Positions 24,841 to 51,633 of a stretch of DNA of 52,837 nucleotides are shown here, one piece after another. The DNA lies in assembly GCF_002923755.1 (NCBI RefSeq), contig NZ_PGFZ01000016.1, positions 1 to 52,837 on the forward strand, written 5' to 3'. The notes below the pieces were generated by a model. That model worked only from the letters and a program-made list of their open reading frames with translations, was not told the origin of the DNA and did no database searches. Source of the DNA: Methylovulum psychrotolerans (GTDB taxonomy: Bacteria > Pseudomonadota > Gammaproteobacteria > Methylococcales > Methylomonadaceae). Each line of letters opens with the position of its first letter. The stretch's first letter is position 1. The translations under genes were made by a program, and so were the position numbers.

Positions 24841-26073
24841 CTAGGACAGGCAGCGTTTAAAAATAAGCGATGTGTTAATGCCGCCAAAGGCAAAATTGTT
24901 ACTCATCAGATATTCGCATTCCAGCAGACGCGTGGCCGCCGTTATATAGTCCAGTTCGGCGCACAGCGGGTCTATCGTGTCCAGGTTGGCGGTCGGGTGG
25001 AACCAGCCTTCGTTCATCATTTGTATTGCCGCCCATGCTTCAATGGCGCCGCACGCCCCCAAGGTATGCCCGGTATAACTTTTCATTGCACTGATGGGGA
25101 TGTTATGCCCAAAAACAGCCCCTGTCGCATGGCTTTCGGCAATATCGCCCAACTCGGTGGCCGTGCCGTGGGCGCTGACATAGCCTATGGCTTTGGCTGC
25201 CAAATCCGCGTCTTGAAGAGCCAGCTTCATGGCGGTTTGCATACTTTGGCAATCCGGTTTTGTAATGTGCAGGCCGTCGGAGTTGGTGCCGAAGCCGACG
25301 ACCTCGGCATAAATGGGTGCGCCTCGGCTAAGGGCGTAATCCCTTTCTTCGAGGATGAGGCTTGCCCCGCCCTCGCCAATGACCAGACCGTCGCGGTTTT
25401 TGTCGAAAGGTCTTGGGGTAAGGTGCGGCTCGTCGTTGCGTTGCGAGGTTGCAAATAACGTGTCGAAAATGGCAGGTTGGGAGGGGGACAATTCATCGCT
25501 GCCGCCCGCTATCATAATAGTTTGTATGCCGTGCTTAATGGTTTCATAAGCATAACCTAGCGCTTGGCTACTGGACGTGCAGGCGCTGGAGGTCGGGATA
25601 ATCCGTCCGGTAATGCCAAAATGCAGCCCGATATTGACCGGGCAGGTATGGCCCATCATGCGGATATAGGATGTCGCGTCCAAACTGCCTTTATCGCAGT
25701 TCAGCAGCATTTTGGTGAAATCTATCAGGCCGTCAAAGCTCCCGGAAGAGCTGCCGTAGGCAATGCCGACGCGGCCGCTTTTCAATATCGGGTCGGCCAA
25801 CAGCCCGGCATCTTGCAACGCCCGTTCGGTGACGTAGGTCGCCAGCATCGCCACCCGCCCCATGCCGCGTATTTGTTTACGCGAATAATGTTCCGGCCTG
25901 ACAAAGTTTGTGGGTGCCGCCAATTGGGTGTTAAGGCCTTTATATTTGCTCCAGTCGGGCATTTTTTGGATGCCTGTGGTCTGGGACTTGAGTTTTTCAG
26001 CCACGCAGGCCCAGTTGTCGCCCAATGGCGTAATCGCCGCCATGCCCGTAATGACTACCCGTTTCATCAGCAT
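24841..26073 (-). CDS. beta-ketoacyl-ACP synthase (aryl polyene type)
   Basis: The 410-residue KS has the full Cys-His-His set: SSACTSSSQALG with the cysteine near residue 165, VSAHGTATELGD and SYTGHTLGACGA. It would elongate the aryl-polyene chain by condensing malonyl-ACP. It corresponds to the terminal KS of aryl-polyene clusters (ApeR-like). Two ATGs compete, at 26073 and 26067. The second gives a TGATG overlap with the reductase stop and the typical start MKRVVITG. It is the last gene of the cluster. Confidence 0.9.
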   Translation of the reverse strand: MLMKRVVITGMAAITPLGDNWACVAEKLKSQTTGIQKMPDWSKYKGLNTQLAAPTNFVRPEHYSRKQIRGMGRVAMLATYVTERALQDAGLLADPILKSGRVGIAYGSSSGSFDGLIDFTKMLLNCDKGSLDATSYIRMMGHTCPVNIGLHFGITGRIIPTSSACTSSSQALGYAYETIKHGIQTIMIAGGSDELSPSQPAIFDTLFATSQRNDEPHLTPRPFDKNRDGLVIGEGGASLILEERDYALSRGAPIYAEVVGFGTNSDGLHITKPDCQSMQTAMKLALQDADLAAKAIGYVSAHGTATELGDIAESHATGAVFGHNIPISAMKSYTGHTLGACGAIEAWAAIQMMNEGWFHPTANLDTIDPLCAELDYITAATRLLECEYLMSNNFAFGGINTSLIFKRCLS

Positions 26074-26792
26074 AACCCCCCATTGACCGAAATGACTTGG
26101 CGGGTAATATAGGCGGCATCCTCGGACATTAAAAAGGCGACGGCGGCGGCGACTTCTTTGCCTGTCCCCGCCCGTCTTAGTGGGATCAGTTGTTTAATGT
26201 CTTCCAGCGGCAAGCCTTCCAGCATCTCGGTCTCAATCAGGCCGGGCGCAACGCAATTCACAGTGATATGGCGTTTTGCCAGTTCCAAGGCCAGCGCCTT
26301 GGTGGCGCCTATTATGCCGGCTTTGGCGGCGCTGTAATTGACTTGCCCGCGGTTGCCCATGAGGCCGGAAACCGAAGCCACAGTAACGATGCGTCCGGGT
26401 TTGCGCCGTTGGATCATGGGCATAACCAACGGTTTTAAGACATTGTAGAAGCCGTCCAAATTGGTTGCAATCACCGTATCCCAGTCGGTATCGGTCAATG
26501 CCGGAAACGCATTGTCGGCGGTGATGCCCGCATTGCAGACCACGCCGTAGTAAGCGCCGTGCAGGGCAATATCTTGTGTCAGCAAATCGGCGCATTGCTG
26601 GCGGTCGGCCAAGTCAAACTGTAAGACGCGGGCTTTTTGCCCCATTGCTGAAATGGCCTCTGCGACGGTTTCGGCTTCGGCTCTGCGGCTATGGCAATGG
26701 ACGGCAATATCGAAGCCTTTGTCAGCTAAGTACAAGGCTATCGCTTTGCCGATACCGCGGCTGGAACCTGTCACTAAAATGGTTTCACTCAT
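26067..26792 (-). CDS. 3-ketoacyl-ACP reductase, FabG-like
   Basis: This short-chain dehydrogenase has 241 residues from MSETILVTGSSRGIG. The NADPH site is TGSSRGIG, followed by NAG at about residue 90 and the catalytic YSAAKAG (SxxxnYxxxK) near residue 155. It reduces the beta-keto group in each polyene cycle, before the dehydratase. It lies between the dehydratase gene and the last KS and corresponds to ApeQ-like reductases. Confidence 0.93.
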   Translation of the reverse strand: MSETILVTGSSRGIGKAIALYLADKGFDIAVHCHSRRAEAETVAEAISAMGQKARVLQFDLADRQQCADLLTQDIALHGAYYGVVCNAGITADNAFPALTDTDWDTVIATNLDGFYNVLKPLVMPMIQRRKPGRIVTVASVSGLMGNRGQVNYSAAKAGIIGATKALALELAKRHITVNCVAPGLIETEMLEGLPLEDIKQLIPLRRAGTGKEVAAAVAFLMSEDAAYITRQVISVNGGLC

Positions 26793-26810
26793 TGTGCAAC
26801 ATCCGGCCAT

Positions 26811-27251
26811 CTATTCTGTAAGTACACGATTATGTTCTGATTGTGGTTGATAAACATTTAATTTGGCCTCGACCAACACGCCAGGTGCGGTAATTTTGCA
26901 ATCAAACACACCTAGCCCTTGTTCCTGTAATATTATTTTGACAGTCACCGTCAATAGCGACCCCATCAAGAAACTGCCTACGTTGCTGGTGTATAGGCGT
27001 GTCCCCAGTAAAAAGCCCAAGTAACTAGGCCGTTGCGCTATTTTATCCATCATCCCGCTGTGCGCCGATATGGTTTGCGCCATGTATTCTATGCCTACCA
27101 GCGCGGACACGGTGTCACCGTCGCCAAATAAGCCGTTGCTTTGGACAATGACCTCAGACACCATGGACTGCCCGTCAAAACTGACGATTTTATCTAACAG
27201 CATCATGCCGCCATCATGGGGCAATAATTCGCCCAGTGTATATCCTTTCAT
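26811..27251 (-). CDS. hotdog-fold dehydratase subunit (ApeP-like)
   Basis: The 146-residue protein starts with GELLPHDGGMMLLDKIVSFD, the opening of FabZ-like dehydratases. The acidic active-site helix is present (VGIEYMAQTISAH), but the GHFPG motif carrying the catalytic histidine is replaced by NGLFGDGD. The complementary histidine motif is found in the dehydratase domain fused to the acyl-AMP ligase at 48089. The two probably form a mixed dimer, as ApeI and ApeP do in known aryl-polyene systems. It overlaps the preceding KS by four bases. Confidence 0.88.
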   Translation of the reverse strand: MKGYTLGELLPHDGGMMLLDKIVSFDGQSMVSEVIVQSNGLFGDGDTVSALVGIEYMAQTISAHSGMMDKIAQRPSYLGFLLGTRLYTSNVGSFLMGSLLTVTVKIILQEQGLGVFDCKITAPGVLVEAKLNVYQPQSEHNRVLTE

Positions 27252-28432
27252 GTACGTGCTACGACAATGGATAGGTTATTGCCGCCAAAAGCAAAGGAAT
27301 TGCTTTGGCAGGCATTGATCTTACGTCCCAAATAGTGCCCTGGTTTGACGAAGTTGAGTTTTGCTAATGCCGGGTCGAATTCGTCGCCATTGATATTGGG
27401 CGGCAATTCCCCGGAAGGGTCGTCGGCGGTCAGTAACAGCCAACAAAACCCCAGTTCCAGAGCGGCGGCGGCCCCTAATGCGTGTCCGGTCATGCCTTTA
27501 GTCGAGCTGGCCGCTGTCCCGTCTGCAAAAACGTCAAACACGCTACGGCTTTCCATTGCGTCGTTCAATGGGGTGGCGGTGCCGTGCAGGTTGAGGTAAT
27601 CGATAGTGCCCGCCGCTTTTCCGGCTTCTTGCAAGGCCATGCGCATCGCTTTTATGACAGATTTGCCGTCAGGCGCCGGGGCGGAGAAATGGTATGCGTC
27701 ACTGCTCGCGCCGATGCCGGATAACTGCACCGGCCCCGCCTCTTTACTCATCACAAATAAGGCGGCGGCCTCCGCTATGTTGATGCCGTCCCGATTTAGG
27801 CCAAATGGCTTGCATAAGCCCGCCGCAACCGATTCTAAGGCGGCAAAGCCATGCACCGTGTAGCGGCACAAGCTGTCCGCCCCGCCGACGATGACCGCAT
27901 CGCATATATCTAAGGCCAGCAGGCGGCGTGCCGACACTAAAGCCCTGCCGCTGGATGAACAGGCCGTGGAAATCGCGTAAGCAGGCCCTGTAAGGCCTAA
28001 ATACGCCGCCAGAAAGTCGGCGCCGCCTGCCAACTGTTGTTGCTTATAATGAAATGCGTCCGGTTTATGCCCGTTTTGGGCGACCCCCGCCCAAGCCGAT
28101 TCGGTATTGCTAAGCCCGGAAGTGCTGGTGCCTATCACCACGCCGATCCGGTTTGCCCCAAAGCGGCGGATCATGCCATCTACCGTACCCTTAATTTGGT
28201 CGAGTGCGGCCAGCAACAGCCGATTATTGCGGCAATCATAGTAAACGTGGGCAGATGTATCGACCCTGGGTAAGTTTGCCTGCACTTCCCCGACATAAGC
28301 AGGCCTTTTGGCAAACAAACGCTCTGCCAGCACAAACCCGGTCTGGTCGCCTGCTAAAACGCGTTTGAGATTTTCTGTTTTAGAATCACCTAAAGGCGAT
28401 ACTATACCAAGGTCGTTCAGGTAAAACTTCAT
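27248..28432 (-). CDS. beta-ketoacyl-ACP synthase (ApeO-like)
   Basis: The 394-residue KS has the cysteine in STACSSSGRALVSA near residue 157 and the two histidines in LNLHGTATPLND and GMTGHALGAAAALE. This second active condensing enzyme is expected to pair with the chain-length-factor-like protein at 36726 or to perform the first condensations. It is followed directly by the dehydratase subunit and lies three bases after the halogenase-like gene. Confidence 0.9.
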   Translation of the reverse strand: MKFYLNDLGIVSPLGDSKTENLKRVLAGDQTGFVLAERLFAKRPAYVGEVQANLPRVDTSAHVYYDCRNNRLLLAALDQIKGTVDGMIRRFGANRIGVVIGTSTSGLSNTESAWAGVAQNGHKPDAFHYKQQQLAGGADFLAAYLGLTGPAYAISTACSSSGRALVSARRLLALDICDAVIVGGADSLCRYTVHGFAALESVAAGLCKPFGLNRDGINIAEAAALFVMSKEAGPVQLSGIGASSDAYHFSAPAPDGKSVIKAMRMALQEAGKAAGTIDYLNLHGTATPLNDAMESRSVFDVFADGTAASSTKGMTGHALGAAAALELGFCWLLLTADDPSGELPPNINGDEFDPALAKLNFVKPGHYLGRKINACQSNSFAFGGNNLSIVVART

Positions 28433-28435
28433 CCA

Positions 28436-29662
28436 TTAAGCCGTTATTCTGCAAAGTTCCACCAAGGTATTCAAGCGGTTTTGTGAATTTTTAACATAAG
28501 GGTTACGTTCGTCCCAAGCGTAACCCGCTAAAATAGAGCAGATCATGGCTTTAATGTTAGGCTGTTGTTGGTTGTAAAAAATCACATCCTGTAAACCGCC
28601 TTCGTACCATGATGTAACAAAAGTCCGAAACGTGTCCACACCTTTTTGTAACGGCTGGGCATAGTCACGTTGCCAATCGATTGCTTGGCCGTTAAATTGG
28701 CGGTCCAGTACGTCAGCGGCCAAACTCGCCGATTTCATCGCGATGGTCACACCCGAAGAAAACACCGGATCCAAAAATTCGCCGGCATTACCCAGCAAGG
28801 CGTAGCCTTTGCCGTGTAATGCGCTGACATTCGCGCTATAGCCTTTAATACCGTTAATGGGCGTGTCGTAAACGGCATTGGCCAGTAAGGCCGACAAATT
28901 AGGCTCTTCCGCCACTAAAGCGTGGAAAGCCTGTTGGTTATCTGCAAAGCCGTCGAATAAGCGGGGCTCCCCGACAATCCCTAAACTGCAACGGCCATTA
29001 CTAAACGGGATAAGCCAGTACCAAACGTCGGCCATTTTGGGATGGATGACGATGCTTATTTGTTTACGGTCATAATCTGCACCGCTAATCCGGTCTTCAA
29101 TATGGGTGAACAATGCCTGTCTGACCGGGAAGTTGGTCGGGCTTTCCAGATTTAACAAACGCGGCAACACCCTGCCAAAGCCGCTGGCATCTAAAACAAA
29201 ATCCGCTTCGGTTTGGTAGGTCGCCTTCTGTTCGTCGCATACGGTCAAAACGGGTTTTGCACCCGAAAAATCCGCGCCTAATACTTGGTGCTGCCATTGA
29301 ATGACCGTGCCTTGCGCTTGCGCCTCGGTAGCCAGCAAGGCATCAAAGCGATCCCGTTGCACCTGAAACGTCGTCTCAAAGCCAGGGCTAAATTTGTCGG
29401 CAAAATAAAATTCTGAGCGTTTGTCGCCGCATAAAAAATCGGCGCCGGTTTTTAACTGGAAACCGGCCTCAATAACCGCCTGTAACATCCCGGCTTCTTC
29501 AATGAATGCCATACACTGCGGCAACAGGCTTTCACCAATACTAAAACGCGGAAAGACTTCCCGCTCCAAGATAATGGCCTGATGGCCTTTTTTTTGCAAT
29601 AAAGCTGCCGCGATGCTGCCCGATGGCCCTGCCCCGATAATAATTACTTTTTTTTGATCCAT
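28436..29662 (-). CDS. flavin-dependent halogenase-like oxidoreductase 1
   Basis: From the ATG at 29662 the protein has 408 residues. It has the FAD motif IIIGAGPSGSIAA, then IGESLLPQC near residue 44, the lysine in LKTGADF near 69, and WYWLIP near 215. The WxWxIP motif and the lysine in K.GA.F are the hallmarks that separate flavin-dependent halogenases from plain monooxygenases. It may therefore halogenate the aryl head while it is bound to a carrier protein. An FADH2 supply from a separate reductase would be needed. It is headed by its own promoter-like TATAAT. Confidence 0.85.
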   Translation of the reverse strand: MDQKKVIIIGAGPSGSIAAALLQKKGHQAIILEREVFPRFSIGESLLPQCMAFIEEAGMLQAVIEAGFQLKTGADFLCGDKRSEFYFADKFSPGFETTFQVQRDRFDALLATEAQAQGTVIQWQHQVLGADFSGAKPVLTVCDEQKATYQTEADFVLDASGFGRVLPRLLNLESPTNFPVRQALFTHIEDRISGADYDRKQISIVIHPKMADVWYWLIPFSNGRCSLGIVGEPRLFDGFADNQQAFHALVAEEPNLSALLANAVYDTPINGIKGYSANVSALHGKGYALLGNAGEFLDPVFSSGVTIAMKSASLAADVLDRQFNGQAIDWQRDYAQPLQKGVDTFRTFVTSWYEGGLQDVIFYNQQQPNIKAMICSILAGYAWDERNPYVKNSQNRLNTLVELCRITA

Positions 29663-29734
29663 TATTGTCCGCACCGAGTAGTGGTATTACGTTTTTATAA
29701 AAATATTGTGCTTAAGTCCGGTGTATTAACGGCA

Positions 29735-29802: not shown

Positions 29803-31233
29803 TTACCTTTTTACCTTGCCGCTTGCCGTGTGGTTTATTTGGGCCACCCTTTGCAAGTATTGCGGCACTTTATAGGTGGACAGCCGTTGTCGGCAAAATT
29901 GCAACAGCCCTTCCACATCCCATGCAGCCTGCTGTGTTAAGACCACCTCGGCACAAACCACTTCCCCAAACAAAGGATGCGCTTGCCCGAAAGCACGGCA
30001 GGCGACAATGTCAGGGTGCGTGCTTAATACCGCTTCGATCTCTTCAGGAAAAGCCTTGTTACCTGACACATTAATCATAGCCTTTTCGCGCCCGCAAATA
30101 GTGATGCGGCCATCACCCCCGCATACGGCAAGGTCGCCAGTTAAAAACCAACCTTGCCGCATGACTTCCCCGGCTGTTTGCCAAGGTTTTAGGTAAGCGT
30201 CAAATAAGCCTGGCCCACAAACGGCCAACCGCCCGATATGCCCGTCAGGTATCGGCAAGCCATTATCGTCCAGTACCGCCACATTAAAGCCATCGGTCGG
30301 AAAGCCTACACTGTGCGGGTCAGGTAGCCCGGTCAGGCTGTCCAATAATGGCAATCCGGCTTCAATAATGCCGTAGGCCTGGCTCACCGGTACCCGGAAA
30401 CGCCGGGTAAAAGCCTCGGCAATCGCGGGCGGTATGGCCGATGATGTGGAAATGGCCGCTTTAAGGGCGGGCATCAGCATCCCCGATGTATCCGCCGCCA
30501 ACAAACGGAAGTGCATGGGGGCGGCATACAGCAGGGTGGCGCGGTGTCGGTCGGCATCCTGAAGTAACGTGCTTGCCAATATATCTTTACAAACGATAAT
30601 TTTCGCCCCGACGCGGATATAAACCAAAATGCTGACCAAAAAATGAAATGCCATCGGCAAAACCCATAACACCGCGTCTTCAGAACTGAGCCGCAAAGCC
30701 TTGCTGGCGTGTTCGACCCGCGCCAAAATGCTGTGGTGCCTCAGCACGACCCCTTTGCTGTTCCCCGTCGTGCCTGAGGTATAACGGATAAAAGCCGCGT
30801 CTGGTAAGGGGGTCATCGCTTGGCCAGTGTCTGCGCCAGTCCAGGCAAAGCGTAATGTTTGCGCCGAAAAAGCTATCAGCAGGCTATTGCCCCCCGTTGG
30901 CATGACACCCGTTTGATCGTCCAATACGGCGTGTACGCCCGTATCCTGCAATAGTTGGGTTATTTCCGCCAATTTCAGTTGATGCGATAACGGTACGACC
31001 ACCGCGCCACATCCCAGCCCCGCTAACATGGCGGCGACAAAGGCGCGGCCATTGCGTCCCATAACCGCCAAGCCCAAGCCTTTGCTTATTCCCATTTGCA
31101 GCAACTGGGCTTTTAGGGTTTCCGTTTGCGCATATAATTCGTGATAACGCATCGTGCCATAGTCATCAACTAACGCCGGGCGGTCAGGCCAAGCCTGGGC
31201 GGCGGCTTCAAGTAACTGGTAGGCAGAATCCAT
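29803..31233 (-). CDS. acyl-AMP ligase (second adenylating enzyme)
   Basis: The 476-residue protein is an ANL-family ligase with the phosphate-binding loop RYTSGTTGNSKGVVL near residue 152, YGIIEAGLP, FLTGDLAV, and the terminal lysine region HTASGKVKR. It has no fused carrier. It sits with a free ACP (33819), a condensation-like acyltransferase and an FAD oxidoreductase. It most likely loads an aryl or amino acid onto that ACP. The substrate cannot be read from the sequence. Confidence 0.88.
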   Translation of the reverse strand: MDSAYQLLEAAAQAWPDRPALVDDYGTMRYHELYAQTETLKAQLLQMGISKGLGLAVMGRNGRAFVAAMLAGLGCGAVVVPLSHQLKLAEITQLLQDTGVHAVLDDQTGVMPTGGNSLLIAFSAQTLRFAWTGADTGQAMTPLPDAAFIRYTSGTTGNSKGVVLRHHSILARVEHASKALRLSSEDAVLWVLPMAFHFLVSILVYIRVGAKIIVCKDILASTLLQDADRHRATLLYAAPMHFRLLAADTSGMLMPALKAAISTSSAIPPAIAEAFTRRFRVPVSQAYGIIEAGLPLLDSLTGLPDPHSVGFPTDGFNVAVLDDNGLPIPDGHIGRLAVCGPGLFDAYLKPWQTAGEVMRQGWFLTGDLAVCGGDGRITICGREKAMINVSGNKAFPEEIEAVLSTHPDIVACRAFGQAHPLFGEVVCAEVVLTQQAAWDVEGLLQFCRQRLSTYKVPQYLQRVAQINHTASGKVKR

Positions 31234-31274: not shown

Positions 31275-32519
31275 CTATAAGTTTTTAGCCATAATTTGTC
31301 GGTGACGGATATTGTTAACGGCAGTTTGCCAGCCGCCTGTCGCGCTGAATTCGGCGGCCAACCCACCCGCCGCATAGCCTGTGCTTAAACAAGTGCCGAT
31401 CACACGCGCCGAGGCTATCGCCGCTTCTGTCGCCGATAAGCCCCGGCCTGCAAAAAAAAGATTGTCCAAATGGCAGGACACAAGCATTTTTGCCGTTATC
31501 CAATACGCGTCATCTATAGGAAAATAACGTAGCGTCGGTTTGCGGTCTTCCCCCCAATATTCGATAGGCCAAGCGCCGATAGCCACACCCGTGTCAGGTT
31601 TTCGGCAAGCCAGGACATGGTTTTCATCTAATAACGCGAGCCCTTGAGAGCGTTCATTGGTGCGTATACCCACTTCAGCCGCCATAGCCGTGATGCGTAA
31701 GTTTACCAAGGACGGTTCGTTGCGGCTCAGATAATCCACAATATTGCTGCTGCGTTCACGCGCCTCCAACTCATACTGGCTTAGGCAACCGATAGAGCCG
31801 TCGAACGGTACCGGCATCCCCAATTTGAGCAGCGTTTGGCCTTGGGCATTTGACCCCGGAATAATAGACAGGCGGTCGCAATACGGGTCTAAACATCCCG
31901 ATTGAATGCCCCGCTTAAGCCCGCGAATTAATGCTAAAGACAGTGCGTCAGGCGCTATCTCAGGCAAGCCGCTAACCTGAAACACCAACGCCCCGGCTTG
32001 GTAATGCGCTTGCCTTATCCTGTCCAGCCCCGCCAACAGGGAGATTTGGGCGCCGCCGCTGCAATCGACGACCGCCGCCGGATAAAGGCTCAGTATCTGC
32101 GCCGGGGTTTGGATGCGCAGCTCGCCTACCCGCTTTTGGCTCAGGCAAACGCCGCTAACGTAGCCTTGCAACACTATCCGCACCCCAGCCTGTTGTAGCC
32201 GCCTTACCGCCACGTGATGGAAGGCGGAAGGGCGGTAAGGCAAAAAATGTAAGCCTTCGCCAAAAGTGGCGACTTGGCTTTGGCTGGCCGTTTGCACCGC
32301 GTCGGCAAATTCCCGCGCAAACCCCTGCACGGCATATCGCGCCGTGGTCGGGTGGCGATAAAACAACCCGCAAATAGTCCCCACCAAGGCGGCAGTGGCC
32401 AAACCGCCAGTAAAACCGTGGCGTTCCACAAGGACAACATTAGCCCCCGCTTCCCCCGCCGCCACGGCAGCGGCAATACCGGCAGCCCCCGCGCCTATCA
32501 CCGCGACATCGCAGCGCAT
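31275..32519 (-). CDS. FAD-dependent oxidoreductase (FAD_oxidored type)
   Basis: The 414-residue protein begins with the Rossmann motif VAVIGAGAAGIAAAVAAGEA and a glutamate that binds the ribose (VLVERHGFTGG). A second FAD contact occurs at LFFAGRGLSATEAAIASAR near the end. It resembles FAD_oxidored-family enzymes, not the halogenases of this cluster: the WxWxIP motif is absent. It follows the acyltransferase after two bases, so the two are co-translated. The reaction is unknown; desaturation or oxidation of a carrier-bound unit is plausible. Confidence 0.8.
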   Translation of the reverse strand: MRCDVAVIGAGAAGIAAAVAAGEAGANVVLVERHGFTGGLATAALVGTICGLFYRHPTTARYAVQGFAREFADAVQTASQSQVATFGEGLHFLPYRPSAFHHVAVRRLQQAGVRIVLQGYVSGVCLSQKRVGELRIQTPAQILSLYPAAVVDCSGGAQISLLAGLDRIRQAHYQAGALVFQVSGLPEIAPDALSLALIRGLKRGIQSGCLDPYCDRLSIIPGSNAQGQTLLKLGMPVPFDGSIGCLSQYELEARERSSNIVDYLSRNEPSLVNLRITAMAAEVGIRTNERSQGLALLDENHVLACRKPDTGVAIGAWPIEYWGEDRKPTLRYFPIDDAYWITAKMLVSCHLDNLFFAGRGLSATEAAIASARVIGTCLSTGYAAGGLAAEFSATGGWQTAVNNIRHRQIMAKNL

Positions 32520-33826: not shown

Positions 33827-34091
33827 GGCGGTTTTGCGCCAGCAAAACCACGCAACACCCGGCCAATGCCCCGGCACTGGCAATATTTTCGGGAGTCAAC
33901 GCTTCCGCCGGCAGTTCCAAGCCGAAACGGCGCTCAATAAACAACACCAATTCCATCAGTGCAAACGAATCCACACCGATTAACGACAAGGGGGTTTCAG
34001 GAGAAACAGCCACATCGCCCGCCAATACATTGGTGCGTAAAAATTCGCACAATTGGCTTTCTATGTCATCTTGGGTAGGGTTAGTGGTCAT
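33819..34091 (-). CDS. acyl carrier protein (third)
   Basis: The 90-residue protein has the phosphopantetheine attachment site in LIGVDSFALMELV (serine near residue 42). The motif is GVDS rather than the F-DSID of the other two ACPs, so it is probably a dedicated carrier for the second ligase. It is co-translated with the condensation-like acyltransferase. It is separated from its upstream cluster neighbours by the HNH nuclease gene. Confidence 0.88.
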   Translation of the reverse strand: MTTNPTQDDIESQLCEFLRTNVLAGDVAVSPETPLSLIGVDSFALMELVLFIERRFGLELPAEALTPENIASAGALAGCCVVLLAQNRHA

Positions 34092-34153
34092 TTCTCGTTT
34101 CTTTTAAAGTTATGTAAAGGGTAGTGCAATGGAACCTATGCAAGAAATTTAAG

Positions 34154-35056: not shown

Positions 35057-35127
35057 AGTAATCTCTAATGGCTCTATATGGGGTTCAAGGTCTTTTTGCC
35101 GTTAATAAATATAGCGACCATAAATCT

Positions 35128-35309: not shown

Positions 35310-35423
35310 ATTTTAGAGGTTGCCATGCTTACTAACGCCTTACCGTACACCCTTAGCAAAAGACCCTGAAACACATATAGAGCCAACTTTTTTAATAAGG
35401 GGCCGTCATTTTAGCCAACACAC

Positions 35424-42295: not shown

Positions 42296-42323
42296 CGCCG
42301 TTAATTTATAGGGGTAAGCCTGC

Positions 42324-42887
42324 TTAATCGATAATATCAGAGACCTTGCCGTCTTTAAAGTTAACGATAAACGTATTAAATTTATTCCGCCAGAACACCC
42401 ACGCATTGGCGCTCAAGTTCGGTGTCCGCGTGATCGGCGGATAACCGATGGCGGTCGTCACCGCTTTTTTGCCCATCCCTACGCTAACCGTGCCCTTATT
42501 GATGTTCTCTTTTTCCAAAGCACTGAATTGGTTCAGGTTGACTTGTTGCTTAGCGAACAATTTGCCAAATGCCTGCTGGGTAGTGTCGCCAGTATGCTTT
42601 TGTATATTTTTGACCACCACTTTTTGGCCGGGGTTGCCGATTTCTATATTGATGGTCGCATCATCAATGCCTAACAGCTTAATTTGGGTATTGACAGGGA
42701 CAGGGACACCCACTTGGTAATTGGTCGTCGGATAAATATTTTTTTCATAGTGCATAAAGACCTGGGTGTAATAAATACCGCCCTCTGTGATAGCAACACC
42801 TAATTCGTCCGCCTCTAGCTTTTTTTTGCAGGCCGCCAATGACAAACTGAGCATGATAACAATCATGCCGCGAAAAAATAGACGCAT
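42324..42887 (-). CDS. cluster-associated lipoprotein
   Basis: The 187-residue protein has a signal peptide with the lipobox LAAC (MIVIMLSLSLAACKKK) and is thus lipidated. The remaining part (GIYYTQVFMHYEKNIYPTTN, GYPPITRTPNL, FWRNKFNTFIVNF) ends like BamE-type lipoproteins, in which a conserved WxYW-like strand follows a G.P motif. It is the first gene of the export operon, with GAGGAG before its ATG and a promoter candidate just upstream. A role in outer-membrane delivery of the pigment is likely. Confidence 0.8.
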   Translation of the reverse strand: MRLFFRGMIVIMLSLSLAACKKKLEADELGVAITEGGIYYTQVFMHYEKNIYPTTNYQVGVPVPVNTQIKLLGIDDATINIEIGNPGQKVVVKNIQKHTGDTTQQAFGKLFAKQQVNLNQFSALEKENINKGTVSVGMGKKAVTTAIGYPPITRTPNLSANAWVFWRNKFNTFIVNFKDGKVSDIID

Positions 42888-44498: not shown

Positions 44499-44917
44499 GA
44501 TTTTTCAAAACCTAATTTTTGCCATAATATCGCCGGGCTTTCATAACACATCTCACGGTTTGCCATATCGACGGCGACTTGAGAAGTGTAGCCGCGCGAT
44601 AACCGGACACCGGATACTTTATCAATAATTTGATAGTTAATTTTCAGGCGGTTTTGCCATTCGACCAGATCCGCCTGCACAATAATTTTTTGTCTGAAGA
44701 TAACCGGCTTAGCGTAGCGGATGCGCAAATCAATGACTGGCCAAGCATAGCCTGAATCCCGCATCGCCATGTAACCGTAGCCAATTTTGTCGAGCAAGTC
44801 GCACCGGGCAATTTCAAAATACTTGGCGTAATTGCCGTGCCAAACGATTTCGATTAAATCGACATCAAAAAACGGCACGTCAATTTCAGTCTCTGAGCTT
44901 ACAATGCTTTTATTCAT
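44495..44917 (-). CDS. hotdog-fold thioesterase (4HBT/YbgC-like)
   Basis: The 140-residue protein has the 4HBT active-site pattern: FFDVDLIEIVWHGNYAKYFE near residue 20, with the catalytic aspartate and an H-x-N-Y segment. In aryl-polyene clusters such a thioesterase (ApeK-like) frees or edits acyl-ACP intermediates. It overlaps the ammonia-lyase gene by eight bases and the CrtI-like gene by four. Confidence 0.9.
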   Translation of the reverse strand: MNKSIVSSETEIDVPFFDVDLIEIVWHGNYAKYFEIARCDLLDKIGYGYMAMRDSGYAWPVIDLRIRYAKPVIFRQKIIVQADLVEWQNRLKINYQIIDKVSGVRLSRGYTSQVAVDMANREMCYESPAILWQKLGFEKS

Positions 44918-46445
44918 ACAAACTCCAGTACTCGTCGCGTATCAGCCCCAAACATAAGCGCAATGGCTGTTCCAATGCCCGGTCGGATTCCAAAAAAGGC
45001 ACATGTTCCCTCACTTGGGATAGGGTCAGGCTGACATTGGCCCCCAACACCAGCGGTTGGCCTGCGCCCCGCAACTCAACCGCCTGAACGGCGGCGATCA
45101 ACGTCGCGGCCGCCACCTGCTCGGTCAACTCCAGCACCCGTATGCAATCACGCGCCGCAATAGTCCCCATGCTGACCTTATCTTGATTATGGCATTCTGT
45201 GGAACGGGAAAACACGCTCGCGGGCATGGTCAATTTCAGGGCTTCCGCCGTCCATGCGGAAACGGCAATCTGTACCGCCTTAAAGCCATGGTTCAACATG
45301 GCGTGTTCGGCTTTCGCCCCGGAAAGGTTGGCGGGCAAACCTTGATTAAATTTGGGGTCGACCAGTTGCGCCAATTGCCTGTCCATCAAATCGGCCAGAT
45401 TGGCCACGGCGGTTTTCATGCTGTCCATTGCAAAAGCGATATGGCCGCCGTAAAAATGCCCGCCATGCAACACCCGCCCGTTTTCGGCATCAATAATGGG
45501 GTTATCGTTGGCGCTATTGAGTTCATTTTCTATAAACTGGCGGAACCAAGGCAACGCGTCTTCCAATACCCCAATAATATGCGGCGCACAGCGCAAAGAA
45601 TAACGGTCCTGTAAACGGGTGTCATTGCGGCCAGTTAGCGCGGCAACCGGCAAATCGCCACGGATACGCCCCGCAACCTTAATCTGTCCGGCATGGGGTT
45701 TGACGCCGAACAGACGTTCGTCGAAATGCCCGGCATTGCCTTGCAGCGCAATCGAAACCAAGCTGGTGATGCGGGTGTTCAACTGCGCCAAATAAGCCGC
45801 CCGTTGATGCGCCAAACAAGCGAGGGCGGTCATGACCGCCGTCCCGTTCATAATCGCCAAACCTTCTTTTGGGTTTAACGTAAGCGGCGTAATGCACAAC
45901 GCCTTAAAAACGCTGGCCGCCGACCGGACTTGCCCCTGGTAACAAACCTCCCTTTCCCCCGCCAGCACCGCCGCCAGATAAGATAAGGGTGTCAAATCAC
46001 CGCTTGCACCGACCGAACCTTCTTGCGGGATTAACGGCAGGATGTCATGGTCGAGCAAACCGCTGATGCGCTCCAACAATGTATAACGTACCCCAGAAAA
46101 CCCTTGCGCCAGGCTATTGATACGCACCGCCATAATCGCCCGGGTTTGGGCGGGGTCAAAATGCGCGCCCAAGCCACAGCCATGAAACGTATAAAGATGC
46201 CGTGACAAGTCGGCGACATGCTCCATAGGGATAGACACGGTACAAGAATCGCCATAGCCCGTGGTGACACCGTAAACAAAACCCTCTTCACGCAATAAGG
46301 TATTGATAAACTCCGCACCCTTATTGATCCTCGCCTTAAAGAAGGCTGTATCGTCCAGCTTAAGGGACTTGGCTTGTTTGGCGATATGACAAATGTCTTC
46401 TATCGTTAACTGTCCGCCATCGACAAGCACCGTATTATTAGCCAT
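44910..46445 (-). CDS. aromatic amino acid (histidine/tyrosine/phenylalanine) ammonia-lyase
   Basis: From the ATG at 46445 the protein has 511 residues. It has the MIO-forming triad in GSVGASGDLTPLSYLA near residue 152 and the tyrosine loop VYGVTTGYGDS near residue 60. The substrate-selectivity region reads RHLYTFHGCGLG, where HAL has S-H, PAL F-L and TAL H-L; here the pair is F-H. It probably deaminates tyrosine or phenylalanine to give a cinnamate-type starter for the polyene. It overlaps the acyltransferase before it by eight bases. The substrate is not certain. Confidence 0.88.
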   Translation of the reverse strand: MANNTVLVDGGQLTIEDICHIAKQAKSLKLDDTAFFKARINKGAEFINTLLREEGFVYGVTTGYGDSCTVSIPMEHVADLSRHLYTFHGCGLGAHFDPAQTRAIMAVRINSLAQGFSGVRYTLLERISGLLDHDILPLIPQEGSVGASGDLTPLSYLAAVLAGEREVCYQGQVRSAASVFKALCITPLTLNPKEGLAIMNGTAVMTALACLAHQRAAYLAQLNTRITSLVSIALQGNAGHFDERLFGVKPHAGQIKVAGRIRGDLPVAALTGRNDTRLQDRYSLRCAPHIIGVLEDALPWFRQFIENELNSANDNPIIDAENGRVLHGGHFYGGHIAFAMDSMKTAVANLADLMDRQLAQLVDPKFNQGLPANLSGAKAEHAMLNHGFKAVQIAVSAWTAEALKLTMPASVFSRSTECHNQDKVSMGTIAARDCIRVLELTEQVAAATLIAAVQAVELRGAGQPLVLGANVSLTLSQVREHVPFLESDRALEQPLRLCLGLIRDEYWSLYE

Positions 46446-47361
46446 GGCCTTCCTGCCAAAAATCATAGAAATTGAACCATTGCAACGGCTCTTTCAAGCA
46501 ATAAGACTGTAGCCTGTCGGCATAGGCCTGAACATACTCTGTTATGGCGCCGTCCCGGTTTTTACGCGGCAAAACGATAGTGTCGCTAAAATGTTCGAAA
46601 TAAATGGTTTGGCAACGCTGATGTTTGAGACAAAACAACGTGTACACAGGACACTTAAGCAAAGATGCCAAAATGTAAGGCCCTTGCGGGAACAAAGCAG
46701 GATGGCCTAAAAAAACGGCGCTGGAAACGCGGTTTTGTCCGCCCACGGGTGTCCTGTCCGCCGCAATCACCACAATTTCCCCTGCATCAACCTTATCCAT
46801 CAACAGCATCGTAGTCGCGGCATTGATGTCGGTCACTTGAATCAAATGGACACGGCTAGATCCGGCCGCGCTGTTTAATAAGGCGTTAAATTTTTCGGCA
46901 TGGCGGGTATGCACCAATACATTGACGTTCACATCTTTGCGTAAACCGGCAATGGCGCGTAACACCTCTATATTGCCGAGATGGGAACCCAGCAACACCA
47001 AGCCTTGCCCGTTATCGACATGCCCAATAATGGCCTCCCGGCCTTTATAGCCAATGTCTTGGAGCGATATTGCCCCGCCCACAGCCGCCAACTTATCGAT
47101 AATGGCATTGGCAAAACTGAGAAAATGCCGATAGCTGTCATAATTTCCCCCTTGCAAACCCGCGTCCGGCAAATACGCCGCCACCTTTTCCAGATAGCGT
47201 CGGCTGGCTTGCCGCCCCGTCCGGTTTACCAACCAGTAGTAACTCACCACTGGATATAAAAAAAACTGTAACAGCCGCCTGCCAAACAACAGGTAAATCT
47301 TCAACAGCAGCTTCATGCCCCAAACAAAGCTGCTTTCTTCAATCTGCGCCCAATGGCTCAT
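46438..47361 (-). CDS. LpxL/HtrB-like lipid acyltransferase
   Basis: With the start at 47361 (MSHWAQIEESS) the protein has 307 residues and shares ATGA with the glycosyltransferase stop. A membrane-associated segment is followed by VLLGSHLGNIEVLR, the H-x4-E motif of the LpxL family, and VVIAADRTPVGGQ. It would add an acyl chain in the inner membrane; here perhaps it couples the polyene acyl to a lipid head. The longer frame to 47397 has no advantage. Confidence 0.88.
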   Translation of the reverse strand: MSHWAQIEESSFVWGMKLLLKIYLLFGRRLLQFFLYPVVSYYWLVNRTGRQASRRYLEKVAAYLPDAGLQGGNYDSYRHFLSFANAIIDKLAAVGGAISLQDIGYKGREAIIGHVDNGQGLVLLGSHLGNIEVLRAIAGLRKDVNVNVLVHTRHAEKFNALLNSAAGSSRVHLIQVTDINAATTMLLMDKVDAGEIVVIAADRTPVGGQNRVSSAVFLGHPALFPQGPYILASLLKCPVYTLFCLKHQRCQTIYFEHFSDTIVLPRKNRDGAITEYVQAYADRLQSYCLKEPLQWFNFYDFWQEGHG

Positions 47362-48092
47362 CGGATCCGCCTCGCCAAAATCCTGGGCAAGCGCCACAAC
47401 ATGCCAAAAAACAATTGCGCATGCTTTTTGGAAATCAGCAAATTGTCGTCCAGCATCCTGAAATGGGAAACGCCATCCAAAGGATAACGGACATCCGTAT
47501 CTATATTAACCACCCCAACACCATCCCAATGTAGGCGCACGGCAATTTCTATATCAAAATCCATACGCTGGCCCAAAGCCGTCGTTTGCACTATCTTACC
47601 GACAGCGGCAAGCGGATAGCACCGGAAACCGCACATCCCATCCCTAATATCGAAAGATAACGTATTAATCCAAATCCACAGATTAGTAAACTGCCGTCCA
47701 TACAGCCTTTTTTTAGAAGCGCTGCCATCAAAACGGGGCGCGCCCAAAATCAATTTATCGGGATTTGCCGCACTGGCGGACAGAAATAGGCGAATGTCGT
47801 CCAAACAGTGTTGGCCGTCAGCATCGATTTGGATAGCGTGGGTGAAACCCTTTGCCAAGGCCAACTGCAAACCCGTGATAACCGCCGCGCCTTTACCGCC
47901 ATTTTTCTCCCTCTCATGCAAAGTCAGCCAAGTGCTGTCCTGCGCGGCCAACCGCCTTAATTCCGCCCCACACGCCGCCGAACTGCCGTCATTAATTAAC
48001 AAACAAGGCAGCTTGAAAGGCCGCAACGCCTCCGTCACTTGGCCAATAGCCTCATGATGGTTATAAACCGGAATGACAATGCACGTTTTCAT
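47358..48092 (-). CDS. family 2 glycosyltransferase
   Basis: The 244-residue protein starts with TCIVIPVYNHHEAIG and has the donor-binding loop LLINDGSS, KNGGKGAA and the metal-binding DADGQH near residue 90. It is a GT-A enzyme of the dolichyl-phosphate mannosyltransferase type but without membrane helices. In aryl-polyene clusters a GT2 enzyme (in some species fused to the acyltransferase that follows here) makes the sugar part of the glycolipid carrying the pigment. It overlaps both neighbours by four bases. Confidence 0.9.
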   Translation of the reverse strand: MKTCIVIPVYNHHEAIGQVTEALRPFKLPCLLINDGSSAACGAELRRLAAQDSTWLTLHEREKNGGKGAAVITGLQLALAKGFTHAIQIDADGQHCLDDIRLFLSASAANPDKLILGAPRFDGSASKKRLYGRQFTNLWIWINTLSFDIRDGMCGFRCYPLAAVGKIVQTTALGQRMDFDIEIAVRLHWDGVGVVNIDTDVRYPLDGVSHFRMLDDNLLISKKHAQLFFGMLWRLPRILARRIR

Positions 48093-49801
48093 AGACTAGC
48101 CCCGTATAAAAGCCTGCCGGAACTATGCGACTCGATACGGGAACTAAAATCGAAATACAATTTGCCGCTGTCCGCATTCCAACTCAGATGCAAAATCAAT
48201 TCATCGTTAGGACGGATTATCTTTTTAAATTTGACAACTTCCATGGATAAAAACCCTTTGGCAATAGGAAAAAACAGCTTGCCATACTTTTCCGCCCAGA
48301 CCAACTGGGTAACACCCGGCAAAATCGGTTGGCCGGGAAAGTGCCCGGCAAAATACAACAAGCCCGCTTGCATACGCAAAGAAAGCTCCACAGCGCCGTC
48401 CTGTTGGCTGAGCAATTGCAGTTCTGGGAATATCCGTCTGTCCAAAGCCAACAAACCGACGATCATCTCATGATCGATTTTGCCTTGGGCTGACAAAGGC
48501 AAACTGTCCATAAACAGCCATTTTTTCGGCAGGACAAGATTTTCAAACGTATCAGACAAACGCATTTTCAGCTGTCCGATAACAGCGCCCCGCCCCTCTT
48601 GCCTTAAATGCCCCAACCCCTTGGCGGTTAAAACAATCAGAGCGGCAACCCGTACCCGCCCATCCCCAAAAAGGCGGCAATGCGCTTGATCCACCCAGTC
48701 TGACTGCTGTAAAGCCTGCTCCATTTCTGTCAGCGACAAACGCTTTTCTTCTATCTTTACGATGCGGTCATTTCGGCCTAACAGACAAAACCGCCCATCC
48801 TGATGCAGTTCTATCCTATCCTGCAACAAATAAGGCGGGGAGGGAGGCAAATAAGGGGATTGCAACAAATGCCGCTCGCCTATGGCCGTTATGCCGACAC
48901 CAGGAAAAGGCAACCAACGCCCTTCCGTCGCCGGCTCGCGCCAAGCGATGCCGCCCGTTTCTGAACTGCCGTAAATATCTATCGGTTTGGGGCCACCATG
49001 CGCGGCAATTTGCCTTGCGACATCCGCATCCAACATACCGCCGGAACTAAAAATGGCTTTTAAAAGACGCATTTCTGACCACGGTGTCAAATCTTCATCA
49101 AGCCTTTTTAACTGGGCGGGGCTAGCCACCCAATAGGACGGACATAAAGACCGCACTGCGGATTTTAACAACGACTCCGGGCTTAGATAGGTTTGGCTAT
49201 GGAAACAACGCCCGCCCGCCAACGGCCACAATACCCTGAACAACAAACCATAGATATGCTGATGGCTGACTGTCGCCAACACCTGGGATTGCGCCAAGCC
49301 TTCTCCCCACTGCCGTTCTAAAGTATCCACCTCAGTTTGCAACTGCCATAATTCCTTTTGGATAGCTTGCGGGTGGCCCGTAGAACCAGAGGTAAAAAAG
49401 GTTAATCGTGACTGCCGCAAATCCAATGGCACTAAAACCTGTGAGACCTCAGCCTCTGACTCAAACAATGGTTTCAGATGGCATGAAGGCCAATCGCCCA
49501 ACAAAGCGCAACCTTGCCGCATCAGCGTCTCAGCGGTCGCCGGCCTGTTGTTGGCGGCAACCCAAACCGCCTTGCCGGTATGCCATAAGGCAAACAGCGT
49601 GACGGCAAAAGGATAAGCCTCTTCATAATACAAGGCATAATCCGTCTGTGCTTGCCGCGCAAAAACCCCCGCCCTGTCCGCCACATCCTGGCAAAAACCG
49701 ATATGACTGATCTGTTGCCCTTGATAAAAAACGACCGGGGCCCTAGGGCTTAAGCCCAAAGCACATTCGGCAAGCGGTGTCGGTTTCAATTCATTGCTCA
49801 C
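48089..49801 (-). CDS. acyl-AMP ligase fused to a FabZ-like dehydratase domain
   Basis: From the GTG at 49801, which has AGGA nine bases before it, the protein has 570 residues; an ATG at 49834 is an alternative and would overlap the upstream gene by 44 bases. The N-terminal 450 residues form an ANL ligase (LTFFTSGSTGHPQAIQKE, YGSSETGGIAWRE, SAQGKIDHE with the terminal lysine). The last 100 residues are a hotdog dehydratase with GHFPGQPILPGV, containing the catalytic histidine. In many aryl-polyene clusters these are two genes (ApeH- and ApeI-like). The ligase would activate the aryl starter acid. Confidence 0.88.
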   Translation of the reverse strand: MSNELKPTPLAECALGLSPRAPVVFYQGQQISHIGFCQDVADRAGVFARQAQTDYALYYEEAYPFAVTLFALWHTGKAVWVAANNRPATAETLMRQGCALLGDWPSCHLKPLFESEAEVSQVLVPLDLRQSRLTFFTSGSTGHPQAIQKELWQLQTEVDTLERQWGEGLAQSQVLATVSHQHIYGLLFRVLWPLAGGRCFHSQTYLSPESLLKSAVRSLCPSYWVASPAQLKRLDEDLTPWSEMRLLKAIFSSGGMLDADVARQIAAHGGPKPIDIYGSSETGGIAWREPATEGRWLPFPGVGITAIGERHLLQSPYLPPSPPYLLQDRIELHQDGRFCLLGRNDRIVKIEEKRLSLTEMEQALQQSDWVDQAHCRLFGDGRVRVAALIVLTAKGLGHLRQEGRGAVIGQLKMRLSDTFENLVLPKKWLFMDSLPLSAQGKIDHEMIVGLLALDRRIFPELQLLSQQDGAVELSLRMQAGLLYFAGHFPGQPILPGVTQLVWAEKYGKLFFPIAKGFLSMEVVKFKKIIRPNDELILHLSWNADSGKLYFDFSSRIESHSSGRLLYGASL

Positions 49802-50333
49802 GCGCTTGCATCCTGATGCGGATAAGATATTCAATCCCCATTAACAAACCTATCAACATATAGGAAATGAAGCCATTGTAGAGGCTCCACCAGAAAAAAC
49901 TGCCCCATAACGCCGTGCCTGCGGCAATCAGGCCATTGACGATAAAAAACACACACCAAACTTGGGTTACTTTTCGGGTATGGATAACGCCTTGAGCCGA
50001 CAAATTAGGATCTTGCATCCTAGCCAAACGCTCAACAATAGGCGGCGGATATAACAAACTCAGCGCAAACAACAAGAAAAAACAAGCGTTCACCCCTACG
50101 GGATAAAGCCGCAAACCCAACGCACTATTTTGCCAAATGGCAAAAGCACAATATAAAACGCCAAAACCCATTAAAGGCCAGCCCAACTGCCTGTCCGCAG
50201 GGGACAAGAAAAAACGCGCCGTTAACACTACTAGCAACGCCAGAGCCATTTTCCAAGGCGCCAACACCTGAATACCCAAATAGACCGCCAAGGGATACAA
50301 CAACAAGGCGCAAGCCAAAATAACCCGAAGCAT
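49791..50333 (-). CDS. COG4648-type membrane protein 2
   Basis: The 180-residue protein has five to six hydrophobic segments (LACALLLYPLAVYLGIQVLA first). It has the motifs VWCVFFIVNGLIAAG and FWWSLYNGFISYMLIG shared with the protein at 41651. It is one base from the ACP gene and overlaps the ligase start. This is the usual position of the ApeG-like membrane protein. Its role is unknown. Confidence 0.85.
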   Translation of the reverse strand: MLRVILACALLLYPLAVYLGIQVLAPWKMALALLVVLTARFFLSPADRQLGWPLMGFGVLYCAFAIWQNSALGLRLYPVGVNACFFLLFALSLLYPPPIVERLARMQDPNLSAQGVIHTRKVTQVWCVFFIVNGLIAAGTALWGSFFWWSLYNGFISYMLIGLLMGIEYLIRIRMQAREQ

Positions 50334-50581
50334 CAGGGATTCATGATCCTGAATATAGACTCAACGACATCGCCCACCGTCCTAGCGGCTTTAAAATCCT
50401 CAAGCTTAAGCTCCCGTTGGGTAATTTCTTTCAGCTTCACTATCATGTCGACCGCATCAATACTGTCAAAATCCAAGTCTTCGTACAGACGGGCATCCAA
50501 CGTTACCTGCTCCGCCTCAATTTCAAACATCTCCAACATTATTTTATTGATAACGCCCAATATCTCATCGCGATCTTTCAT
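50333..50581 (-). CDS. acyl carrier protein (second)
   Basis: The 82-residue ACP has the attachment site DLDFDSIDAVDMIVKL with the serine near residue 40. It overlaps the next gene by one base. It carries the growing polyene or the aryl starter, as ApeF-like ACPs do. Confidence 0.92.
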   Translation of the reverse strand: MKDRDEILGVINKIMLEMFEIEAEQVTLDARLYEDLDFDSIDAVDMIVKLKEITQRELKLEDFKAARTVGDVVESIFRIMNP

Positions 50582-50594
50582 ACCACCCCCCGAT

Positions 50595-50870
50595 TCAAAT
50601 CCGTTTTAATTCAAGTTGTTTGGAATAAATAAAAGCGGCTAAATGGGAAACCGAAGCGAATATATCCTTAACGTTGTCGGCTTCCGCATCGATTTTGACA
50701 TCATATTTTTTTCTTATGGCCAAACCCAACTCCAAAGCATCAATTGAATCCAGCTCATAACCGCCACCAAACAAAGCCTCATGGCTATTAAAACTGGCAA
50801 CACTCAAATCCTCTAAAGACAAAGTGTCAATAATCATTTGCTTTAGCTCATTTTCCAAACTGCTACTCAT
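50595..50870 (-). CDS. acyl carrier protein (first)
   Basis: With the start at 50870 (MSSSLENELKQMI) the protein has 91 residues and an attachment site GGYELDSIDALELG near residue 40. It overlaps the acyltransferase gene by eight bases; the longer open frame to 50930 lies inside that gene and is rejected. It resembles ApeE-like ACPs. Confidence 0.9.
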   Translation of the reverse strand: MSSSLENELKQMIIDTLSLEDLSVASFNSHEALFGGGYELDSIDALELGLAIRKKYDVKIDAEADNVKDIFASVSHLAAFIYSKQLELKRI

Positions 50871-51633
50871 GTTTGCTCCGTTGTTGAGTAAAATAATCTT
50901 GTAAATAATGGTTGAAGCGGCGCACCGCAATGCTTTTTGGCGTTATTGCACGAAAATCATCCAGCACCATATCCTCGCCTACCGTCATCGACAAATGGAA
51001 CCGCCGCTCAGGTATTTGATACCATTTTTCCGCCTTCGTTAAGGTACTGGGGGAACAATGCAGCGTAACAGGTGTCACTATAGCATTAGCCTGCAATGCG
51101 ACCGCCGCCGCACCCCGTTGGAAATGGTATTCGGTATTGGGTACTGTCCGCGTACTTTCGGGGAAAATAATCATAATGCCGCCGGACATCAAATACGCCA
51201 CACAACGGTCGATCATCTGTTGGGGATCCTCATTACTGATATAACCGGCATTGATGATAGACCCTTTCATACAAGGGTTATGGCACAGCTTACTTTTAAC
51301 AATGCAGCTCGCATAAGGGATGCGGCTAAGCAAAAATACAATGTCGATCAAGGTCGGGTGGTTAGCCAAAATTAATTGGCCTGGCCGGTTCAGCCTCTCC
51401 AAGCCATTAACTTCATAAGTCATAATCCCGATCCGGTGCATCAAACCGATAAAAATGCCAAAGCTGTAATGCACACATTTTTGCGCCCGCCCCCTTTTCT
51501 TAAGAGGGCTACCAGGAATGGCGTTAAGTACAGGAAAAACCAGCACCCATAATAAAAAACCACCTATGCCAAAAACACTAAAGCTCAGACCCGTAGCAAA
51601 CAAACGCCAATAATAATCCAGTCGTTTTTTCAT
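50863..51633 (-). CDS. PlsC-like lysophospholipid acyltransferase
   Basis: The 256-residue protein has an N-terminal membrane segment (FSVFGIGGFLLWVLVFPVLN), the H-x4-D motif in ANHPTLIDIVFL near residue 92 and IFPESTRT near residue 160, which takes the place of the usual FPEGTR. It is the first gene of the cluster, as the ApeD-like acyltransferase is in known aryl-polyene operons. It probably prepares the lipid anchor. Confidence 0.9.
   Translation of the reverse strand: MKKRLDYYWRLFATGLSFSVFGIGGFLLWVLVFPVLNAIPGSPLKKRGRAQKCVHYSFGIFIGLMHRIGIMTYEVNGLERLNRPGQLILANHPTLIDIVFLLSRIPYASCIVKSKLCHNPCMKGSIINAGYISNEDPQQMIDRCVAYLMSGGIMIIFPESTRTVPNTEYHFQRGAAAVALQANAIVTPVTLHCSPSTLTKAEKWYQIPERRFHLSMTVGEDMVLDDFRAITPKSIAVRRFNHYLQDYFTQQRSKHE

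Follow-up and report, generated by a model that had tools for sequence, protein, structure and literature searches.

A methanotroph aryl-polyene gene cluster with a five-gene cassette that may cap the polyene with a halogenated acyl group

Introduction

Why should a gene cluster for an aryl polyene (APE) hold a second ligase with its own acyl carrier protein (ACP), a condensation-like transferase and more than one halogenase-type flavoprotein? This question is raised by positions 24841-51633 of contig C8 in the 5.19-Mb genome of Methylovulum psychrotolerans; "the window" denotes the whole 52,837-nt stretch that was analysed. The methane/ammonia monooxygenase family PF02461 is matched in this genome, and the locus is the APE cluster of a methanotroph, with a separate five-gene cassette (order halB-ACP3-Cond-FADox-lig2) set among its genes. 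We observed defined gene families and catalytic motifs, a fixed composition of the cassette, its occurrence in different contexts, and a homologous prolyl/pyrrolyl-type module in sister clusters. Because the second branch travels as a unit, a second unit joined to the polyene is the best reading: judged from sequence, the cluster rather probably has a built-in, self-contained module that would cap the polyene with a halogenated acyl group.

Composition and distribution of the cassette

The original prediction had proposed a second ligase branch with a dedicated ACP, alongside a condensation-like transferase, and this branch proved to be real. We searched 301 Methylococcales genomes, drawn evenly from the order, with a profile of the stand-alone condensation-domain acyltransferase (Cond), so that Cond occurs in every cassette counted. 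Matches appeared in 34 genomes at E 1e-30; at E 1e-80 or better, 18 of them have true members of the cassette, and the other 16 have distant homologues only. The complete five-gene order was present in 14/18 cassette genomes, the other four (G238, G285, G087 and G299) being cut by contig ends. A scan of named sequences gave 10 orthologues at 45-79%, nine labelled within Methylococcales and one only as Gammaproteobacteria; at its remote end stood one Nitrospirae locus at 29% and seven others at 22-26%. On that Nitrospirae contig (L057:9974-11582), a Cond of 28-29% is followed by a FADox-like start (53% identity over 17% of the window protein) in a neighbourhood of ketosynthase (KS), family 2 glycosyltransferase (GT2) and MMPL genes.

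The cassette lay in an APE cluster of the window's kind in 8/18 genomes and in a clearly different APE cluster in 4/18, whose genes, where present, matched those of the window at 45% (ketoreductase, KR), about 40% (GT2), 32-34% (LolA) and about 50% (MMPL). No APE core was in reach of the cassette in three genomes (G067; G059 and G087, both limited by contig ends), and the context could not be decided in three more (G038, G285 and G299). When four cassette proteins were concatenated for a maximum-likelihood tree of the 18 genomes, some partial, the four second-kind genomes formed one clade (support 100) between two first-kind groups, with key branches at 79 and 84. Since the first-kind genomes are thus not one clade, the tree points, short of proof, to movement of the cassette from one kind of cluster to another. 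In G014, lig2 is spread over three reading frames and stands about 3 kb from FADox.

Two halogenase-type flavoproteins

Two halogenase-like flavoproteins had been predicted beyond the core. Both were confirmed as such, and their placement was corrected: halB (35424-36665; PF04820) lies with FADox in the second branch, whereas halA (28436-29674) belongs to the APE core and is separated from the ketosynthase gene KS_O by 3 bases. Both proteins contain the GxGP nucleotide motif, the catalytic lysine (in QLKTGA of halA and QYKPGA of halB), WxWxIP (at residues 218 and 212, respectively) and FxxPxxSxG, the motifs of flavin-dependent halogenases. We aligned halA with orthologues at 68% or more (8 rows, five contigs) and halB with orthologues at 60% or more (15 rows, some repeating one contig; three without the start, one of these also without the lysine stretch), and the motifs were kept in every orthologue row covering them. 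L040, which groups with halB only distantly (27%), has WIWHIA in place of WxWxIP.

The two flavoproteins share only 28% identity. The nearest solved structure to halA was 3nix, a Cytophaga hutchinsonii flavoprotein (372 bits), while halB was nearest to ChlB4 (121 bits), 5buk (117 bits) and PltA (108 bits), which we take to be halogenases of carrier-bound substrates. With halA belonging to the core and halB to the cassette, the two probably act on different substrates.

Enzymes of the cassette

The AMP-forming (adenosine monophosphate-forming) ligase lig2 (29803-31233; PF00501/PF13193) keeps the ligase motifs and the catalytic lysine, and among solved proteins a feruloyl-CoA synthetase is closest to it. 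In 9/9 cassette ligases aligned (of the 18 cassette genomes), LPMA[FY]HF-LV replaces the aspartate signature of amino-acid adenylation (A) domains, that of the Asp235-type residue. Because this signature is missing, an alpha-amino acid is an unlikely substrate of lig2, which differs in this residue from the A domains of prolyl/pyrrolyl modules. Proline, although it suits the sister modules, was rejected for the window on the missing aspartate and on the lack of a prolyl-carrier dehydrogenase of the acyl-CoA dehydrogenase family in the window genome at E 1e-70; the cassette oxidoreductase FADox (31275-32519), which uses flavin adenine dinucleotide (FAD), is a PF12831 protein (E 1.1e-60). In G038 (L036/L054), a proline-type adenylation domain with FDLSVFDLF directly follows lig2.

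The carrier protein ACP3 (33819-34091; PF00550) has the DS site and is closer to the ACP of the pyrrole-type module described below than to the core carriers ACP1 or ACP2. Cond (32522-33829 from the ATG start; longest open reading frame to 33883) carries the site WHHVLMDA, with Ala for the Gly of HHxxxDG, and HHxLxDA is kept in the cassette rows. Its Pfam Condensation match (16.6 bits) is below the cut-off of 30.6, and membership by sequence was rejected; site and fold place the protein in the condensation superfamily. The structural model (predicted local distance difference test score, pLDDT, 86.9) has a condensation fold, with 324 PDB matches at E 0.001 or better and a Foldseek E of 6e-19 against a surfactin C domain.

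A sister pyrrole-type module

The distant homologues found in the Cond search belong to a sister module, which consists of an ACP, a Cond, an AMP-forming enzyme and, in most loci, an acyl-CoA dehydrogenase-like protein. Its AMP-forming enzyme has the amino-acid adenylation signature FDLSxFDL[FY] in 14/14 rows aligned, from 13 contigs. Among solved proteins that stand alone, L-proline ligases came closest to the A domain of L061 (254 and 251 bits), with higher summed scores for multi-domain peptide synthetases, and the L061 dehydrogenase was nearest to a prolyl-ACP dehydrogenase (204 bits). For three other sister dehydrogenases, the PigA and RedW models scored highest, below their cut-offs. A halogenase follows the module in L059-L062, the one in L061 being nearest to 5bva, the brominase Bmp2 (229 bits). 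PltF/PltE, RedM/RedW and the Bmp enzymes are established pyrrole-making sets, and by analogy the sister module is apparently a prolyl-to-pyrrolyl set.

The module adjoins halA on the cassette's side, on the opposite strand, in G007, G016, G029 and G042 (in G021, only ACP and Cond), and it was found in L061:4177-9440, L060:9701-15011, L062, L059, L045, L076-L078 and others. It lies in or beside APE clusters of Methylococcales and Zetaproteobacteria, but some loci had no core in reach: among the 24 sister loci, 8 (L042, L043, L059, L063, L064, L080, L081 and L085) had at most a halA- or PlsC-type core gene, and L058 and L082 had accessory genes only. The prolyl-type dehydrogenase occurred in 88/301 genomes at E 1e-70.

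We then compared both modules across the 70/301 genomes in which halA reached at least 60%, after removal of four partial rows. The cassette was present in 8, the dehydrogenase in 22, both in 0 and neither in 40 (Fisher's exact P = 0.05, without account of relatedness). At a halA threshold of 69%, 23 genomes remained: 7 with the cassette, 15 with the dehydrogenase, 1 with neither and 0 with both. The dehydrogenase lay within 12 kb of halA in 13 of these 15 genomes and in 15/22 overall (7/22 not).

The aryl-polyene core and its starter

We assigned 27 genes in 24841-51633, all on the minus strand and mostly overlapping or within tens of bases of each other. The genes stood where the original prediction had put them, and Pfam and NCBIfam models (with curated cut-offs where quoted) agreed with its family calls and with an APE-type cluster. 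Four NCBIfam models passed their cut-offs: the ApeR-like ketosynthase KS_R (24841-26073; NF006587, 664.5 against 470), the ApeO-like ketosynthase KS_O (27248-28432; NF006618, 466.9 against 407), ACP2 (50333-50581; NF003757, 102.7 against 65) and ACP1 (50595-50930; NF006617, 76.5 against 70). The active-site Cys is kept in KS_R and KS_O and absent from KS-N (36726-37463; PF13723), which is chain-length-factor-like; ACP1 and ACP2 both have the DS site. These genes, together with an ApeQ-like KR (26067-26810; PF13561), an ApeP-like dehydratase (26811-27251; PF22817) and an ApeI-like dehydratase fused to an aryl acid ligase (48089-49834; PF00501 and PF22818), provide the type II fatty acid synthase-like KS, chain-length factor (CLF), KR, dehydratases and dedicated ACPs of an APE cluster. 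In the fusion, the 4-coumarate ligase model TIGR02372 had the top score, below its cut-off.

The export and attachment functions of an APE cluster are likewise all present: a LolA-like periplasmic carrier (41015-41650; PF19574), an MMPL/RND-type exporter (38704-41013; PF03176), GT2 (47358-48092; PF00535), a lipid A-type acyltransferase (46438-47397; PF03279) and a PlsC-type acyltransferase (50863-51633; PF01553). Both dehydratases, LolA and MMPL passed the Pfam cut-offs. The cluster also holds a 4HBT thioesterase (44495-44917; PF13279) and a CrtI-like FAD oxidoreductase (42993-44498; TIGR02734 at 186.8 bits against a cut-off of 238). An ApeG-like membrane protein (49791-50333) was named by position, size and synteny in the absence of a family match, and a small putative lipoprotein (42324-42887) and a membrane protein (41651-42406), both cluster-conserved, were likewise placed by synteny and match no family.

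Three genes had gone unlisted in the original prediction: a CPA2-type Na+/H+ antiporter (37460-38707; PF00999, with TIGR00932 the best model, below cut-off), an HNH gene (34154-35056) and an aromatic ammonia-lyase (44910-46466; PF00221, 545 bits). The lyase has the ASG triad of the methylidene-imidazolone (MIO) group, and its nearest solved structures are Tyr aminomutases. Its best NCBIfam models were the BagA/FevW tyrosine lyase (437 bits) and histidine lyase (424 bits), none over its cut-off. A His stands in the selectivity stretch, as in tyrosine- and histidine-type lyases, and the extra Glu of histidine lyases is missing. We infer that the enzyme is probably of the tyrosine type and supplies the aryl starter, an assignment kept at this strength because both best models fall below cut-off.

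The lyase was present in 13/27 genomes tested: in 8/8 with the cassette in the window's cluster kind, in 5/5 tested with the pyrrole-type module beside halA, and in 0/14 of the others. With a lyase in the genome alongside either module, the module seems to add to the aryl starter and not to replace it, and a pyrrole or aryl unit as replacement starter is disfavoured.

Proposed pathway

In the pathway that we propose, the ammonia-lyase would convert tyrosine (or a related amino acid) to a cinnamic-type acid, the ligase-dehydratase fusion would load this acid on a core ACP, and KS/CLF, KR and the dehydratases would extend the starter to a polyene. The acyltransferases, GT2, LolA and MMPL would see to the attachment of the polyene to a carrier, either lipid or sugar, and to its export, and halA would probably halogenate the aryl end. 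In the cassette, lig2 would activate a carboxylic acid that lacks an alpha-amino group and is most likely aromatic, and would load it on ACP3. There halB would halogenate and FADox oxidise the bound acid. Cond would then pass the completed acyl group on from ACP3, the acceptor being a hydroxyl or amine on the polyene conjugate. The substrate, halogen, order of steps and acceptor given here are predictions.

A wider view, which we hold only tentatively and would slightly sooner doubt than accept, is that methanotroph APE pigments are two-part molecules assembled combinatorially from a common polyene core and the products of interchangeable acyl modules, each module bringing a carrier protein, a stand-alone condensation domain, a ligase, an oxidase and at times a halogenase of its own. 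These modules would make proline-derived (halo)pyrrole-2-carboxyl caps or, in the window, a halogenated aryl-type acid; where both occur, as in G144, a doubly capped pigment would result. Should a ligase-ACP-condensation module indeed cap such polyenes with pyrrole or halogenated acids, some of what is now catalogued simply as "arylpolyene" pigment is described wrongly, and this could bear on how methanotrophs are protected from light and oxidants.

Weighing of the alternatives

Several findings count against capping by the cassette. Among clusters with halA at 60-66%, 29/34 have neither module, so the module is dispensable. Both modules occur in one APE cluster of G144 (L066, L086), and the prolyl-type dehydrogenase was also found in 9/10 cassette genomes outside the window's cluster kind; the two modules are thus not strict alternatives at the place beside halA. 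As for the five genomes tested with the pyrrole-type module, their lyase gene is either on a different contig from halA or 22-59 kb away from it. Among the best 50 of the 324 PDB matches of Cond, the top TM-score (0.73) belonged to a dehydratase of this fold, AzeD (8s6l), and Cond might therefore do more or other than acyl transfer. The FADox model was middling (pLDDT 73.7) and matched general FAD enzymes, and neither lig2 nor FADox has a close characterised relative.

The alternative that survives best, though we consider it unlikely, is that the halogenase-fold proteins halA and halB work as hydroxylases or another kind of oxygenase and that the product has no halogen. The best NCBIfam model of halB was the monooxygenase QhpG (112 bits, below its cut-off of 240), ahead of the halogenase CmlS at 95 bits, which also speaks against halogenated capping. 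Arcuflavin, moreover, is proposed in the available text of PMC3949708 to be non-brominated despite a gene annotated as halogenase in its cluster. The best NCBIfam model of halA, however, was CmlS (160.7 bits, below its cut-off of 900), and the lysine, WxWxIP and FxxPxxSxG are all conserved, the last two being absent from two further Trp_halogenase-family (PF04820) matches in the same genome.

It is somewhat less probable that the cassette makes a small product of its own, such as a halogenated acyl compound or ester unrelated to the polyene, and sits in APE clusters by shared regulation or chance transfer. The cassette does bring a ligase, a carrier and a transferase of its own while lacking an elongating KS, and Methylothermaceae have it with no APE core in the flanks (on a complete contig in G067, with flanks of 16 kb and 18 kb; to the contig ends in G059 and G087). 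The G067 cassette may therefore act on something other than a polyene and is a further point against capping. Yet 12/18 cassette genomes have the cassette in or against an APE cluster, of two kinds, and the homologous pyrrole-type module is also in or beside APE genes in many, though not all, loci.

That lig2 and ACP3 feed a halogenated aryl acid to the polyene KS as an alternative starter, with no second unit, is quite improbable: lig2 resembles aryl-acid ligases and halB resembles halogenases of carrier-bound rings, but the lyase accompanies both modules in the counts given above, and Cond, which a starter route would not need, is in every cassette found (as the query) with its active site kept.

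Comparison with known systems

APE clusters of the E. coli/Vibrio type have a standard ape gene set. The window shares with them KS, CLF, KR, dehydratases, ACPs, ligase, thioesterase, GT2, acyltransferase, LolA and MMPL; it differs in adding the antiporter, the CrtI-like protein, halA and the cassette, and in a starter from an in-cluster ammonia-lyase. The PltF/PltE/PltA, Bmp and RedM/RedW modules resemble the cassette in combining a carrier protein, an AMP-forming ligase, flavin oxidation and a halogenase acting on a carrier-bound acid. In the cassette, however, the amino-acid Asp is missing from lig2, a PF12831 protein takes the place of the acyl-CoA dehydrogenase as oxidase, and there is an additional stand-alone condensation domain.

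Flexirubins of Bacteroidota have an ammonia-lyase starter and require a dialkylresorcinol. The starter type is shared, and the solved protein nearest to halA comes from Cytophaga hutchinsonii; in contrast, the window lyase does not pass the model of the FlxA-type tyrosine ammonia-lyase (NF053541, 340 bits against a cut-off of 700), of which it is a relative and not an equivalog. The flexirubin logic of the original prediction was not borne out: the genome has a single PF08545 match (contig C34), presumably its FabH, no PF00195 match and no dialkylresorcinol synthase candidate of the DarB type (β-ketoacyl-ACP synthase III-like), DarA not having been searched for. Flexirubin/dialkylresorcinol logic was thus rejected for lack of a DarB candidate.

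The arcuflavin (arc/dar) cluster of Azoarcus sp. BH72, a xanthomonadin-dialkylresorcinol hybrid, lists a halogenase, a Na+/H+ antiporter and an N-terminal KS protein in the available text (PMC3949708). It shares these with the window, together with LolA, an exporter and, on our reading of the cassette, a polyene joined to a second unit; it differs in its dialkylresorcinol second unit and chorismatase starter, where the window has no DarB candidate and an ammonia-lyase (PMC3949708). Xanthomonadin, a brominated aryl polyene, is the other likeness: according to the part available, halogenase genes stand beside a KS/CLF pair in several clusters, and the xanthomonadin cluster has one beside an unusual KS/CLF pair (PMC3691225), as halA stands beside KS genes here. 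Its starter is chorismate-derived, and that part of the source mentions no second ligase-ACP-condensation module (PMC3691225). Among the cluster proteins, to which this search was confined, family scans reported no XanB2-type chorismatase.

APE clusters were present in all Methylobacter analysed, and Krause et al. 2025 is cited for gammaproteobacterial methanotrophs generally, in the available text of PMC12810054. Earlier publications thus already cover both halogenases in clusters of this type and a hybrid polyene, arcuflavin. We found no description of the cassette or the pyrrole module in APE clusters in the open-licence literature, which is weak evidence for absence, and the interchangeable acyl modules were not found in print.

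A probable insertion and neighbouring genes

The HNH gene (PF01844) looks like an insertion between halB and ACP3 and was not counted in the pathway. It was rejected as a pathway part on the low G+C of its stretch (0.41 over 34092-35423) and on the lack of any HNH match in the relatives' stretches examined around the cassette. At the same halB/ACP3 junction, G285 (L070) has about 1.1 kb of DNA.

Near the contig start (1842-12029) lie type I restriction-modification genes (HsdR, HsdS and HsdM) and a YgjP-like metallopeptidase; a HipA-family protein (17829-19166) and a short serine-recombinase-like open reading frame (20851-21327) stand between these and the cluster. Two proteins of no assigned family (135 and 654 aa), at 22246-24673 beyond KS_R, also occur after the cluster in G006. 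The 654-aa protein is found in G213 as well, and homologues of the 135-aa protein are present in some distant APE loci.

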